From Dehalococcoidia bacterium (lineage in GTDB: Bacteria; Chloroflexota; Dehalococcoidia; Tepidiformales; Tepidiformaceae): 36,853 nt of DNA. The position numbers and the translations under genes were made by a program. Location: assembly GCA_020850615.1 (NCBI GenBank), contig JADZEI010000065.1:1-36853 (forward strand), in the 5' to 3' direction. Every line of letters begins with the position of its first letter. The stretch's first letter is position 1. Positions 416 through 5,837 of this stretch are shown in pieces. A model generated the notes under the pieces. That model worked only from the letters and a program-made list of their open reading frames with translations, was not told the origin of the DNA and did not search any database.

Positions 416-2524
416 ATGGCAGTGCAGACAGCTGGCAGCAGCGGGCTCCGCCGCATCCTGGGGCAATCCGACGTGCTCATGGCCGCGGGGATCATGGTCA
501 TCATCGGGATGCTCATCATCCCGCTGCCGGCGCCGCTGCTGGACATGCTGCTCACGGTGAACATCGCGACGTCGGTCATCATCGTGCTGGTCTCGATCTA
601 CAACGAAGACGCGATGAAGTTCTCGAGCTTCCCGTCACTGCTCCTGATCACGACGCTCTTCCGGCTGGCGCTGAACGTGTCGACGTCGCGCCTGATCCTG
701 CTGCACGGCGAGGCGGGGTCGGTGGTGCACTCGTTCGGGTCGTTCGTGGTCGGGGGGAACCTGGTCGTCGGCCTCGTGATCTTCTTCATCCTCGTGATCA
801 TCCAGTTCGTCGTGATTACGAACGGCGCGGGGCGCGTGGCGGAGGTGGCGGCGCGGTTCACGTTGGACGCGATGCCCGGCAAGCAGATGGCGATCGACGC
901 GGACCTGAACGCGGGGCTGATCGACGAGACGCAGGCGCGGCAGCGGCGGACGGCGATCTCCGAGGAAGCGGACTTCTACGGCGCGATGGACGGCGCGAGC
1001 AAGTTCGTGAAAGGCGATGCGATCGCGGGCATCATCATCATCATCGTCAACATCATCGGCGGGCTGACGATTGGCGTGATCCAGCAGGGGGTGGCGCCGG
1101 CGGAAGCGCTGCACAAGTACGCGCTGCTCACCATCGGCGACGGGCTGGTGTCGCAGGTGCCGGCGCTGCTGATCTCGACGGCGACGGGCATCGTGGTCAC
1201 GCGGTCGGCGGGGACGACGGACCTGGGGTCGCAGTTGTTCTCGCAGCTTTCGGGACAATCGAAGCCGCTGTACATCGCGGGCGGGACGCTGGCGGCGTTC
1301 GCGATGCTGCCGGGGCTGCCAAAGCTGCCGTTCTTCGTGGTTGCGGCGGTGGCGATTGGCGGCGGGTACCTGGTGAAGCGCCAGCACGACGCAGAGGCGT
1401 TCGCGGCCGCCCAGCCGCCGCCGGAACCGCCGCGCGAGGCGGAGCAGCTGGGGCCGCAGCAGGTCATCCAGATGATGGCGGTGGACCCGATCGAGGTGGA
1501 GGTCGGCTACGGGCTGATCCCGATCGTCGATGAGCAGTCGGGCGGAGGGCTGCTGCGCCGGATCACGATGATCCGGCGGCAGCTGGCGCTGGACCTGGGG
1601 CTCGTGCTGCCGACGGTGCGGGTGCGGGACAACCTGCAGCACGCACCCAACGCATACGTGGTGAAGCTGCGGGGCGTGGAGATCGCGCGGGGGACGCTGC
1701 AGCCCGGGCAGTTCCTGGCGATGGACCCGGGCACGGCGGAGGGGGATGTGCCGGGGACGGAGACGCACGAGCCCGCGTTCGGGCTGCCGGCGCGGTGGAT
1801 CATGCCGCAGCAGAAGGAGCGGGCGGAGCTGCTGGGCTACACGGTGGTGGACGCCGAATCGGTGCTGGCGACGCACCTGACGGAGCTGGTGAAGCGGTTC
1901 GCGCCGGACCTGTTGAGCCGACAGGACACGCAGAACCTGCTCGAGAACCTGCGGGGCGACTACCCGGCGCTGGTCGAGGACCTGGTGCCGAGCACGCTGA
2001 CGGTGGGCGAGGTGCAGGAAGTGCTGCAGAACCTGCTTTCGGAGCGCGTGAGCATCCGCGACCTGGTGACGATCTGCGAGGCGCTGGCGACGCATGGGCG
2101 GCTGACCCGGGACATCGACCTGCTGACCGAGTATGCACGGGCAGCGCTGGCGCGGCAGATCAGCCGGCAGCACGCCGACGAGAGCGGGACGATCCACACC
2201 ATCACGGTGGGCACGCGCACCGAGGACGAGATTGCGAGCGCGATCCAGCAGACGGAGCGCGGGAACACGATCGCGATGCCGCCGTGGCAGATGCAGCGGC
2301 TGCTCGGCGTGGTGAGCACGGAAGTCGAACGCGTGGCGGGCTTCGGGCGGGACCCGATCATCCTTTGTTCTTCGCGCATCCGGCTGGCGTTGCGGCGCCT
2401 GCTGGAGCGGCGGCTACCCAACGTAACGGTCCTCTCCTTCGCGGAGGTCACACCCCTGACCGCGGTCGAAGCGGTCGGCAACATCGAGGTGAACGTCGGT
2501 GGAAACGAAACGATTCATCGGTAA
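416..2524 (+). CDS. flhA: Flagellar export gate protein FlhA
   Basis: FlhA forms the nonameric export gate of the flagellar type III secretion system and docks chaperone-substrate complexes. At 702 aa it has normal family length. The N-terminal third carries about seven or eight hydrophobic segments, and the conserved stretch with NDDAMK-like NEDAMKFSSFPSLLL and the FHIPEP-region motifs (FTLDAMPGKQMAIDADLNAGLI) is present around residues 145-170. The soluble C-terminal domain follows from about residue 345. The ATG immediately follows the flhB stop. The end overlaps the next gene by 26 bp, consistent with one operon. Confidence 0.97.
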   Translation: MAVQTAGSSGLRRILGQSDVLMAAGIMVIIGMLIIPLPAPLLDMLLTVNIATSVIIVLVSIYNEDAMKFSSFPSLLLITTLFRLALNVSTSRLILLHGEAGSVVHSFGSFVVGGNLVVGLVIFFILVIIQFVVITNGAGRVAEVAARFTLDAMPGKQMAIDADLNAGLIDETQARQRRTAISEEADFYGAMDGASKFVKGDAIAGIIIIIVNIIGGLTIGVIQQGVAPAEALHKYALLTIGDGLVSQVPALLISTATGIVVTRSAGTTDLGSQLFSQLSGQSKPLYIAGGTLAAFAMLPGLPKLPFFVVAAVAIGGGYLVKRQHDAEAFAAAQPPPEPPREAEQLGPQQVIQMMAVDPIEVEVGYGLIPIVDEQSGGGLLRRITMIRRQLALDLGLVLPTVRVRDNLQHAPNAYVVKLRGVEIARGTLQPGQFLAMDPGTAEGDVPGTETHEPAFGLPARWIMPQQKERAELLGYTVVDAESVLATHLTELVKRFAPDLLSRQDTQNLLENLRGDYPALVEDLVPSTLTVGEVQEVLQNLLSERVSIRDLVTICEALATHGRLTRDIDLLTEYARAALARQISRQHADESGTIHTITVGTRTEDEIASAIQQTERGNTIAMPPWQMQRLLGVVSTEVERVAGFGRDPIILCSSRIRLALRRLLERRLPNVTVLSFAEVTPLTAVEAVGNIEVNVGGNETIHR

Positions 2525-3821
2525 CGACATGACGCGGCTGTACGACCGCGTGAAGAAGGAGTTCGGGCCCGATGCGATCATCGTGCGCACGCGAAGCCTG
2601 CTGCGGGAAGGCGCGGACCCGCTGATCGAGGTGATCGCGGCGCCGCCGGCGGCGGCACCGGAGCTGGCGCTCGACCTGCAGTGGAAGATGGTCGACGGGG
2701 CGCTGGGGCGTCTCCAGATCGCGCGGCCGCGGGCGACGATCGGCGACCTGGAGGACCTGGCCGTGCGCGAGGGGCCGGCGCCGGTGCGGGCGCAGCTGGC
2801 GGAGCCGATCGATGCGCAGCCGGCGCCCGAGTGGTTCGGCGGTTATGTGGACCAGGACGACGACGAGCCACCGCGGGCGCCACAGCGAGAGCCGGAAGTG
2901 ACGGAACCGCGGCGGCACGTGCGCTTCGGGGATTTGGACACGATCCCGGAGGTAGAGGCGCCGTCGCCAACGTGGGCGAGCCGGCCGCGGCCACACATGC
3001 CGCCGCGGCGCACGGCAGCCGAGCACCGGGGCGAGCCCGGCGTGGTGGAGATGCCCGCGCGGCGGGCGCGGGCGGCGACGGGTCTTGCCGGGACGCTGAC
3101 GGCGGCAGGGCTGAGCGAGCGGGCCGCGCGGGTGGTGGCCGACGCCGCGGGGGCGAACGCCGAGCCGGAGGCCGCACTGGCGGCGTACCTGGGTTCGCTG
3201 GACGTGCGCTACCCGGACGGCGACCACGCGGCCCTCGTGACGATCCAGGGGCCGGAAGGCGCGGGGCGGACGCTGGCACTGATGCGGATGGCGCTGGACT
3301 GCGCCGACGCCGGGCGGGAGGCGGTGCTCATCGCGGCGGACACGACGCGGGCGGCGGCGCGGGAGCAGGTGCACGCCTACGCGGAAGCGACGGCGCTGCC
3401 GGTGGCGGACGCGATGGAGCCGTCGCAGCTGGCGGGGCGGCTGGCGCGGGCGAAGCGCGGCGCGTGCCTCTTCGCGGATGTGCCGGCGGGGCCGTACACA
3501 GCGCCGCAGACGGCGGGCGAGCACCACTACGCCTACCTGGCGCTGCCTGCGCACTGGCAGGAGGGGGCGCTGCGGCGGGCGCTCGCGACGTTCGACCTGG
3601 AGCGGTTTTCGGGCGTGATCCTGACGTATGCCGACCTTTCCACCGACCTGTCACCAGCTCTCTCCGTGGCCATCGAGGCGGGGATGGGGGTTGCCTTCCT
3701 ATGCTCGAGTAGGGACATCAGCACTGGCATCGAATCCGTGGATCCGCCAGTGCTCGCATCAGGGATTCTCCGCGGAGTCACGGGGGTCACGACCGATGGG
3801 CTCGTCGTTGCCTCGGCGTGA
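2499..3821 (+). CDS. flhF: FlhF-like SRP-family GTPase homologue with degraded GTPase motifs
   Basis: The N-terminus (METKRFIGNDMTRLYDRVKKEFGPDAIIV) matches FlhF, the SRP-type GTPase that places flagella and sits after flhA in many genomes. The GTG start at 2499 has GAGGTG at 2486-2491 and overlaps flhA. A Pro/Arg-rich linker (about residues 100-200) precedes an NG-like domain. The G motifs are eroded: the P-loop at residues 251-258 reads GPEGAGRT with Arg257 for the invariant Lys, the DTAGR motif is replaced by DVPAG (327-331), and TKxD is replaced by TYAD (376-379). The DTTR element, like DTYR, is kept. GTP binding is therefore doubtful. No flhG partner follows. The family call is good; loss of activity is inference. 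Confidence 0.85.
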   Translation: METKRFIGNDMTRLYDRVKKEFGPDAIIVRTRSLLREGADPLIEVIAAPPAAAPELALDLQWKMVDGALGRLQIARPRATIGDLEDLAVREGPAPVRAQLAEPIDAQPAPEWFGGYVDQDDDEPPRAPQREPEVTEPRRHVRFGDLDTIPEVEAPSPTWASRPRPHMPPRRTAAEHRGEPGVVEMPARRARAATGLAGTLTAAGLSERAARVVADAAGANAEPEAALAAYLGSLDVRYPDGDHAALVTIQGPEGAGRTLALMRMALDCADAGREAVLIAADTTRAAAREQVHAYAEATALPVADAMEPSQLAGRLARAKRGACLFADVPAGPYTAPQTAGEHHYAYLALPAHWQEGALRRALATFDLERFSGVILTYADLSTDLSPALSVAIEAGMGVAFLCSSRDISTGIESVDPPVLASGILRGVTGVTTDGLVVASA

Positions 3822-4485
3822 GACTGAGTTGAAAGCACGGGGACTGGTCCCCGGGCTGATCATCCAGCTAGAAGTGCGGGTGGGGGATCGCGTGGAGACG
3901 TACTCGACACGAGTCGAGGATGTGACCGAGGAGCAGTTCGCGGTACTGGTGCCGATGCGTGGCCACCAGCACCGGCCGGTGCCCGCGGGCACGGGGCTGC
4001 GGATCCGGTATGGGCACGGCAACCAGCCGCTGACCTTCGTGACCACCTCGCTCGGTGCCAGCCCGGACGGCGAGCTGCTGTTCCTGGCTCCGCCGCGGCA
4101 CATCGAGCATTCGGACCGGCGGTCGGCGTTCCGGCTGCCGATGGCACTGCCGCTGATCGCGCTCTACCGGATGGTCATCGACGGCCAGTCGGAGGAGCCG
4201 GTCGACCTGAAGGCGACGATTGTCGACCTGAGCGAGGGCGGCGCCTGCCTGAGCACGCGCAACCCGATCGCGCTGCACGAGTGGCTCGGGATCGAGTTCG
4301 AGCTGCCCGGCGGCGGCCCGTTGCGGGCGCGGCTGCGGGTGGTGGGCGTCGAATCGCCGGGGTTCGGACGCGTGAACCTTCGGGTGCACTGCATGTTCGC
4401 GGACATCCGGCTGAGCGACCGTGACCGGATCGCGCGGTACCTGATGCGGCGGCAGATCGAGCTGCGGCGGAGGGGGCAGCTATGA
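3796..4485 (+). CDS. YcgR-type PilZ-domain flagellar brake protein
   Basis: A 229-aa protein with an N-terminal YcgR-like beta domain (about 15-100) and a C-terminal PilZ domain (about 105-225). The c-di-GMP-binding signatures are intact: RxxxR as R109-SAF-R113 and DxSxxG as D144-L-S-E-G-G149. YcgR proteins bind c-di-GMP and slow or stop the flagellar motor. I chose the ATG at 3796, which overlaps flhF by 26 bp and follows a G-rich stretch; an in-frame TTG at 3829 is possible. The position between flhF and sigma-28 resembles the ylxH/ycgR area of Gram-positive fla/che operons. The organism therefore probably tunes motility by c-di-GMP. Confidence 0.88.
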   Translation: MGSSLPRRETELKARGLVPGLIIQLEVRVGDRVETYSTRVEDVTEEQFAVLVPMRGHQHRPVPAGTGLRIRYGHGNQPLTFVTTSLGASPDGELLFLAPPRHIEHSDRRSAFRLPMALPLIALYRMVIDGQSEEPVDLKATIVDLSEGGACLSTRNPIALHEWLGIEFELPGGGPLRARLRVVGVESPGFGRVNLRVHCMFADIRLSDRDRIARYLMRRQIELRRRGQL

Positions 4486-4745
4486 GCCCGTCGCAATTCC
4501 CGCCGTACCTGGTGGCCCGCTGGGGGATGTATCTCGCGGTCGGCGTGGCGGTGCTGAGCGTCTGGCTCGGGCAGCGCGCGGGCGCGTCGCTGGACTACAG
4601 CCTGCTGCGAGCAGTGTTCATCTTCGTCATCTTCACAGCGCTGGGGCTCGGAGCGGAGGCGGTCCTCAACACGAATTTCGTCCCATCGGCAGCTGCCGAC
4701 CCACACGCCGAGCGGCCGGCCGAACCGGAGCAACACGATGAGTAA
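4482..4745 (+). CDS. Small two-helix membrane protein, unknown function
   Basis: This 87-aa protein has two predicted membrane helices (about residues 12-30 and 40-60) and a short acidic, Ala/Pro-rich tail. It starts at the ATG inside an ATGA overlap with the PilZ gene stop, so it is translationally coupled to it. I recognise no family. Its position inside the flagellar operon suggests a membrane-associated accessory role, perhaps tied to the PilZ brake or the export apparatus, but that is only context. Confidence 0.7.
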   Translation: MSPSQFPPYLVARWGMYLAVGVAVLSVWLGQRAGASLDYSLLRAVFIFVIFTALGLGAEAVLNTNFVPSAAADPHAERPAEPEQHDE

Positions 4746-4765
4746 CCGAATGAGGAGGTGTGCCG

Positions 4766-5503
4766 ATGGCCACCGCCGCTGAAGCCCGCACCTTCGGAGT
4801 CGACCGCGATGCGGCGATCCGGCAGTACGCGCCGCTGGTCAAGTACGTCGTCGGGCGGCTGGCGATCGGCCTGCCGGCGATCCTGGACTACGAGGACATC
4901 CTCAGCTACGGCACGATCGGCCTGATCGAGGCCCTGGACCGGTACGACGACTCGAAGGGCGTGAAGTTCGAGACGTATGCGATCAGCCGGATCCGGGGGG
5001 CGATCATCGATGCGCTGCGGTCGCTGGACCGGCTGCCGCGATCGGTGCGGCAGAAGGCGAAGCGGCTGGAGCAGGTGACCGTGGACCTGACGGCGTCGCT
5101 GGGGCGGGACCCGACTGACCAGGAGCTCGCCCAGGGCATGGGCATGACGCGCGAGCAGTACAACGGGATGCTCGTGGACTCGAGCTGGGTGACGGTTTCG
5201 CTCGACGGGCTGCTGGACCGGGACGACAACACGGACACGGGCCACACGGACATGCCGGCGGACCCGAACGAGGTGGACTTCACGGAGCGGCTCGAGAAGA
5301 AGCAGATGCTGGACGCGCTCTCGGGGGCGGTGAAGGGGCTGCCGGAGCGGGAGTGGCTGATCGTCAGCCTGTACTACAAGGACGAGATGACGATGAAGGA
5401 GATCGCCCAGATCCTCGACATCTCGGAATCGCGCGTGTGCCAGTTGCATGGCCGTGCGCTGAGCCGCCTGCGGGCCCGCCTGGCTCGCGAGAAGGCTGCG
5501 TAG
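4766..5503 (+). CDS. fliA: Flagellar sigma-28 factor FliA/SigD
   Basis: This sigma-70-family factor of the FliA class (245 aa) drives late flagellar and chemotaxis genes. Region 2 is clear (YAPLVKYVVGRLA, DYEDILSYGTIGLIEALDRYD, FETYAISRIRGAIID), followed by the FliA-typical DALRSLDRLPRSVRQKAK segment and a C-terminal region 4 helix-turn-helix (MKEIAQILDISESRVCQL). The ATG at 4766 lies 7 nt after a strong AGGAGG at 4753-4758; a GTG at 4760 is less likely. Its antagonist FlgM is encoded downstream in the same operon. Confidence 0.96.
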   Translation: MATAAEARTFGVDRDAAIRQYAPLVKYVVGRLAIGLPAILDYEDILSYGTIGLIEALDRYDDSKGVKFETYAISRIRGAIIDALRSLDRLPRSVRQKAKRLEQVTVDLTASLGRDPTDQELAQGMGMTREQYNGMLVDSSWVTVSLDGLLDRDDNTDTGHTDMPADPNEVDFTERLEKKQMLDALSGAVKGLPEREWLIVSLYYKDEMTMKEIAQILDISESRVCQLHGRALSRLRARLAREKAA

Positions 5504-5513
5504 GAGGACGGTG

Positions 5514-5837
5514 ATGAACGACGCGATTGCGTTGCTCGCGATTTCGCAGCTCGTGTGCCTGGGGGCGCTCGGGTACCTGTACATGGAGCTTTCCCGGATG
5601 CGGCGCGCGCGGCCCCGGCGCGAAGTGCGGGCCGAACGGCCGGCGCCGGCGGCTGCACGGCAGGCCGCGCAGCAGGCGTACGCCGCGCAGGGCGGCGGGC
5701 CGTTCGCGCGGGACGCGGGCAACATCGCCCAGCGGATGAACGACCTGGGAGTCGATGTCTCGACGCTGGCGCGGCGGATGGGCAAGAGCGAGGAAGAAGT
5801 GCGGCTGCTGCTGCGCCGCCAGGGCGTGGTGCGGTGA
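5514..5837 (+). CDS. SwrB/YlxL-like single-pass membrane protein
   Basis: A 107-aa protein with one N-terminal membrane helix (about residues 5-22), a basic Arg/Ala-rich linker and a small C-terminal helical module ending in a helix-turn-helix-like stretch (ARRMGKSEEEVRLLLRR). This layout and its place directly after sigma-28 match SwrB/YlxL of Bacillus, which follows sigD and promotes activation of the flagellar export apparatus. The ATG at 5514 follows AGGAGG at 5502-5507, which overlaps the fliA stop. Sequence similarity is too weak by eye to name it firmly, so the call rests on architecture and synteny. Confidence 0.72.
   Translation: MNDAIALLAISQLVCLGALGYLYMELSRMRRARPRREVRAERPAPAAARQAAQQAYAAQGGGPFARDAGNIAQRMNDLGVDVSTLARRMGKSEEEVRLLLRRQGVVR

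Follow-up and report, generated by a model that had tools for sequence, protein, structure and literature searches.

The flhF-like gene in the window (the whole stretch of 36,853 nucleotides analysed here, from a genome of 4.17 Mb that is 95% complete) encodes an ortholog of FlhF, as is seen from its sequence, gene order and fold. The preferred reading, to which a probability of roughly 0.6 is given, is that this ortholog has turned into a pseudo-GTPase across one flagellated family of Chloroflexota, in which it would work as an adaptor of FliG without an FlhG-driven hydrolysis cycle. That the protein has given up GTP hydrolysis and the FlhG-driven cycle is well supported by the sequences, since the G1 lysine, the G3 glycine, the G4 lysine and the helix following G3 have disappeared throughout the family and there is no FlhG. 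We infer the adaptor function, and the FliG interaction that it involves is carried over by analogy from another phylum.

The flhF locus and the predicted fold of its product

The features of the locus are listed in Table 1. The gene lies directly after flhA in a flagellar operon, which is the position expected of flhF, and its GTG start is backed by conservation across the family from residue 1 onwards (METKRFIGND). The TIGR03499 profile of FlhF matches the ORF at 2499-3821 over residues 1-320 with an E value of 4e-22 and a score of 79 bits, which lies below the curated equivalog cut-off of 174 bits; the SRP54 profile matches the same ORF with an E value of 1e-13.

Table 1 Features of the flhF locus; residues are numbered along the FlhF-like protein
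Feature	Position	Strand	Remarks
flhA	416..2524	+	TIGR01398, E 4e-261; upstream, overlaps the start of flhF
flhF-like gene	2499..3821	+	440 amino acids; GTG start; degenerate SRP-type GTPase by TIGR03499 and SRP54 profiles and fold
N-terminal domain of the FliG-interaction type	2499..2642	+	Residues 1-48; in the model strand 4-8, helix 11-22, strands 27-34 and 42-48
Linker	2643..3077	+	Residues about 49-193; poorly conserved; mostly low pLDDT except helices 58-75 and 81-91
Shortened N domain	3078..3227	+	Helices 195-202, 207-217 and 223-233 in the model
G1/P-loop GPEGAGRTL	3249..3275	+	Residues 251-259; Arg257 in place of Lys
G2/insertion box ADTTRAAAREQ	3336..3368	+	Residues 280-290; kept in the window protein, eroded in relatives
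G3 DVPAG	3477..3491	+	Residues 327-331; followed by a deletion of 8-10 residues
G4 TYAD	3624..3635	+	Residues 376-379; Lys gone, Asp retained
PilZ/YcgR-like gene	3796..4485	+	PilZ, E 4e-12; PilZNR, E 2e-8; start placed at 3796 on the basis of the domain limits
Small membrane protein gene	4482..4745	+	87 amino acids; open frame; between the PilZ gene and fliA
fliA (sigma factor)	4760..5503	+	TIGR02479, E 6e-74

Short ORFs comparable to the one at 4482-4745 are present at the equivalent position in the genomes G038, G039, G040, G043 and G058. The PilZ/YcgR-like gene also adjoins flhA in G038 and G040, two genomes in which this position yielded no flhF, and so it may be the older neighbour in the operon. 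After fliA, the ORF at 5511-5837 (108 amino acids) gives a weak DUF2802-like match (E 0.007) and probably encodes a small protein of the flagellar operon.

An AlphaFold2 model of the window protein was built from an alignment of 19 rows, and its pLDDT was mostly above 90 for residues 201-400. The best match to the model in VIA-align was the FlhF of Shewanella putrefaciens (8r9r; Z 23.3, 237 residues, 3.2 A), and the top matches in Foldseek were the NG domains of FlhF and of Ffh/FtsY; the predicted structure thus has an SRP-type NG fold. Residues 4-48 are modelled as strand-helix-strand-strand, which corresponds to the layout reported for the FliG-interaction domain (FID) in S. putrefaciens FlhF (PMC11236974). 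As a control, the intact FlhF of G043, a genome of the same class, was modelled identically. This control has five helices in the N domain as against three in the window protein, and it has a helix after G3 (residues 277-288) that the window model lacks. It had been claimed originally that the N-terminus and the overall NG fold are kept; this holds for the N-terminal domain and for the outline of the fold, but the N domain has become shorter and the post-G3 helix has been lost. On comparison with the solved FlhFs of S. putrefaciens and Bacillus subtilis (8r9r, 2px0/2px3), the window protein shares the N-terminal domain, the linker, the NG domain and the position after flhA, whereas it lacks the G1 lysine, the G3 glycine, the G4 lysine and the post-G3 helix, has the shorter N domain and is unaccompanied by FlhG.

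The nucleotide site in the family and in other Chloroflexota

Alignment to 8r9r and 2px0 placed Arg257 (codon CGG at 3267-3269) at the P-loop lysine, DVPAG at the G3 sequence DTAG and TYAD at TKID/TKLD. The same three replacements had been named in the original prediction, whose residue numbering proved to be exact. The G1 consensus GxxGxGK[T/S] is represented by GPEGAGRT, the G3 consensus D-T/S-A/P-G by DVPAG, in which the aspartate is kept, and the G4 consensus TKxD by TYAD. The window protein retains several residues of the nucleotide site, among them G251, G256, T258, D281, D327 and D379.

The same positions were compared across 19 family members and 17 FlhFs of other Chloroflexota, which were aligned jointly, and the substitutions were found to be shared by the relatives. 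The G1 lysine is replaced by arginine in 17 of the 19 family members and is kept in two (G017 and G023), while all 17 outgroups have lysine. At the position of the G3 glycine every family member has Ala, Pro or Ser and every outgroup has Gly. The G4 lysine is lost in 19/19 family members, its place being taken by Phe, His, Gly, Ala or Tyr; among the outgroups it is Lys in 16/17 and Arg in 1/17. Between the G3 aspartate and the strand that follows lie 18-19 residues in the family as compared with 27-28 in the outgroups, and the deletion of 8-10 residues after G3, by which the helix is removed, is present in all 19 aligned relatives. The other Chloroflexota proteins, although homologous to the window FlhF (and, in the case of G043, likewise encoded after flhA), keep GKT, D[TS][AP]G and T/S-K/R-x-D in 17/17. 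As the degenerate state is found in 19/19 aligned relatives and in 0/17 outgroups, it is far beyond chance. In the FlhF tree the family has a long stem branch of 2.45 changes per column. A constraint placing the 18 Arg genomes in one clade was not rejected (p-AU 0.26), and the lysine of G017 and G023 may be either ancestral or regained.

Every family member has the same residue at five positions (G251, G256, D327, T376 and D379), and T258 and D281 (18/19) are nearly invariant; the catalytic arginine and glutamine of G2 are found less often (R284 in 11/19, Q290 in 15/19). Because G251, G256, D327 and D379 are invariant and two members keep the P-loop lysine, it is possible that the family proteins still bind a nucleotide or even hydrolyse it slowly. 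The original prediction of a nucleotide-independent scaffold therefore survives in part: a scaffold fits and the loss of hydrolysis is supported, but independence of nucleotide is too strong a statement.

A possible, if somewhat doubtful, alternative is that GTP, GDP or another nucleotide is held permanently as a structural ligand, hydrolysis and switching having been lost. The seven invariant or nearly invariant residues and the strong constraint that acts between G1 and the insertion box, as measured by dN/dS of close pairs, are consistent with such a role, and a precedent is given by the septin pseudo-GTPases that stay GTP-bound (PMC10731463). Against this stand the exchange of both lysines, in G1 and in G4, and the fact that the retained residues may serve folding alone. 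The septins are also of interest for the adaptor reading, since their pseudo-GTPases derive from GTPases, gave up hydrolysis on several occasions and have a part in assembly (PMC10731463), as is proposed for this FlhF; they belong to another class of GTPases with another function, and the comparison is an analogy only.

It is decidedly improbable that the changed site belongs to a new active enzyme which hydrolyses GTP or another nucleotide through different residues. The motif set of the family is altered yet conserved (GRTTAL, D-x-P-A-G, T-F-T-D, S-G-R-D), and SpoIVA, a relative of the GTPases that hydrolyses ATP, shows that such a change has a precedent (PMC10731463); however, the G3 glycine and the following helix are absent and the Arg and Gln of G2 are not conserved.

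Retention of flhF, selection and the absence of FlhG

The FlhF-like protein was found in 22/22 family genomes with flhA and in 0/15 without it, 37 genomes having been searched. Among the 22, the gene is cut by a contig end in one and frameshifted in two, and its frame is intact in 19. The two frameshift-split copies belong to G021 (L019) and G032 (L026/L128), which are both members of genus g14. Sequencing errors are suggested for G032 by the fact that its flhA is split as well; G021 has an intact flhA, and its split flhF may reflect real decay.

Selection was estimated from four close pairs by the Nei-Gojobori dN/dS, a simple method that, with the modest dS of some pairs, gives rough values. 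These were about 0.04-0.12 for the N-terminal domain (residues 1-50), about 0.09-0.18 for the NG domain and 0.15-0.34 for the linker (segment used, residues 51-190), the last being above the neighbouring regions in most pairs. All regions are well under 1, and the gene is maintained by purifying selection that is strongest on the N-terminal domain.

These values and the conservation across the family led to the rejection of the idea that the window gene is a pseudogene. A second intact flhF, with the present copy as a pseudogene, was looked for in the same genome and was not found; the remaining SRP54-class matches were MeaB and two strong ones, which are read as FtsY and Ffh. More generally, a pseudogene, an assembly error or a misread frame is highly improbable as the source of the altered motifs: the sub-cut-off TIGR03499 score and the frameshifted copies of genus g14 could be taken that way, but the frame is open in 19 genomes and under purifying selection.

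FlhG was searched for with a profile made from six FlhGs that adjoin flhF in other Chloroflexota, against which genuine FlhGs not used in building it score 278-356 bits. Neither the window nor the 95% complete genome yielded an flhG, the best match in the genome being a CpaE/TadZ-like protein with 71 bits; in the relatives the best scored match was below 100 bits. Candidates in the window's own genome proved to be ParA, Mrp, CpaE-like, cobyrinic acid synthase and kinase-like matches and were rejected as FlhG. The reported absence of flhG thus extends from the window to the genome. As an argument about FlhF the missing partner weighs less than it seems, as G043 (L080:4810-5985) has intact FlhF motifs and FlhG was not found in its genome either; the loss of flhG alone therefore need not bring about that of the motifs. 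In G160 and G426, too, an intact flhF locus has no FlhG adjoining flhF.

In another family of the same class, G058 carries an FlhF-like gene (L124:7803-8828) that resembles the one in the window in being degenerate at G1, G3 and G4 and in lying between flhA and fliA. Its P-loop is GPPGAGSTT and its G4 is TQAD, so that the lysine is replaced by serine and other residues differ from those of the window family. Judging from these differences, the degeneration of G058 is probably a separate loss, although its placement in the FlhF tree is unsure owing to long branches. The interval from flhA to fliA yielded no flhF in G038, G039 and G040, genomes that were searched with the window protein only and may hold a distant copy elsewhere; flhA and FliG are present in all three. 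At L125 (G039), L126 (G040) and L127 (G038), only the small membrane protein gene, with or without the PilZ gene, parts flhA from fliA. In the rest of the class, then, FlhF has kept its motifs, has degenerated separately or was not found next to flhA, and its degeneration or loss has probably occurred more than once in the class.

Such a pattern also bears on the view that FlhF became purposeless after the loss of FlhG and is drifting towards loss with a weak function left, which is considered unlikely. The state of G058, the three genomes without flhF between flhA and fliA and the long stem branch are in its favour, but the dN/dS of the close pairs, which stays well under 1 in all regions, and the retention of flhF in all flhA-bearing genomes of the family speak against it. 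The family FlhF may nevertheless matter little, given that flhA and FliG persist in families of the same class where flhF was not found next to flhA.

Proposed role and significance

According to the adaptor reading, FlhF would no longer hydrolyse GTP or run the FlhF-FlhG cycle. Its N-terminal domain would hold FliG, and its NG-type domain would touch another partner, which may be the membrane, a landmark or FlhF itself. In this way the protein would act as an adaptor or chaperone that helps to place or stabilise FliG/FliF in an early step of flagellar assembly, and release, which elsewhere takes place through FlhG-stimulated hydrolysis, would be spontaneous or otherwise driven. In Shewanella, the N-terminal domain of FlhF binds FliG (PMC11236974). 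A scaffold role fits the present family because the N-terminal domain of the FliG-binding type is the best conserved part of the protein and because FliG is present, both in the window's own genome (C22:62960-63283) and in most flhA-bearing relatives.

The FlhF family as such is already known, and what is new is a functional variant that extends over a whole family. No pseudo-GTPase FlhF was found in the open-access literature, and the terms 'degenerate' and 'Chloroflex' do not occur in a recent review of the FlhF/FlhG switch. The broader proposition, that a family-wide FlhF places or builds flagella without the GTPase cycle and FlhG, that a switch has thereby become a fixed adaptor and that a second degeneration took place independently in G058, has about an even chance of being right.

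The need of FlhF for GTP has long been debated, and mutants of different species disagree (PMC12713375, PMC12826062). A natural lineage that is devoid of the GTPase motifs and of FlhG, and in which selection still maintains the protein, makes it possible to test directly which portion of FlhF cannot be spared. The family is probably Tepidiformales, in line with a GC content near 70% in its genus g14 (69.4-71.1% is reported for two Tepidiforma species) and with the way flagella are distributed according to PMC10284905. Cultured Tepidiforma is motile by flagella, and no Chloroflexota outside the Tepidiformales are reported to have been observed with flagella (PMC10284905); if the family studied here corresponds to the Tepidiformales, members with observed flagella are included and the test would be possible in cultured bacteria. 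If the fixed adaptor is real, the core job of FlhF would be to hold FliG, and the GTPase cycle would be an optional layer of control.
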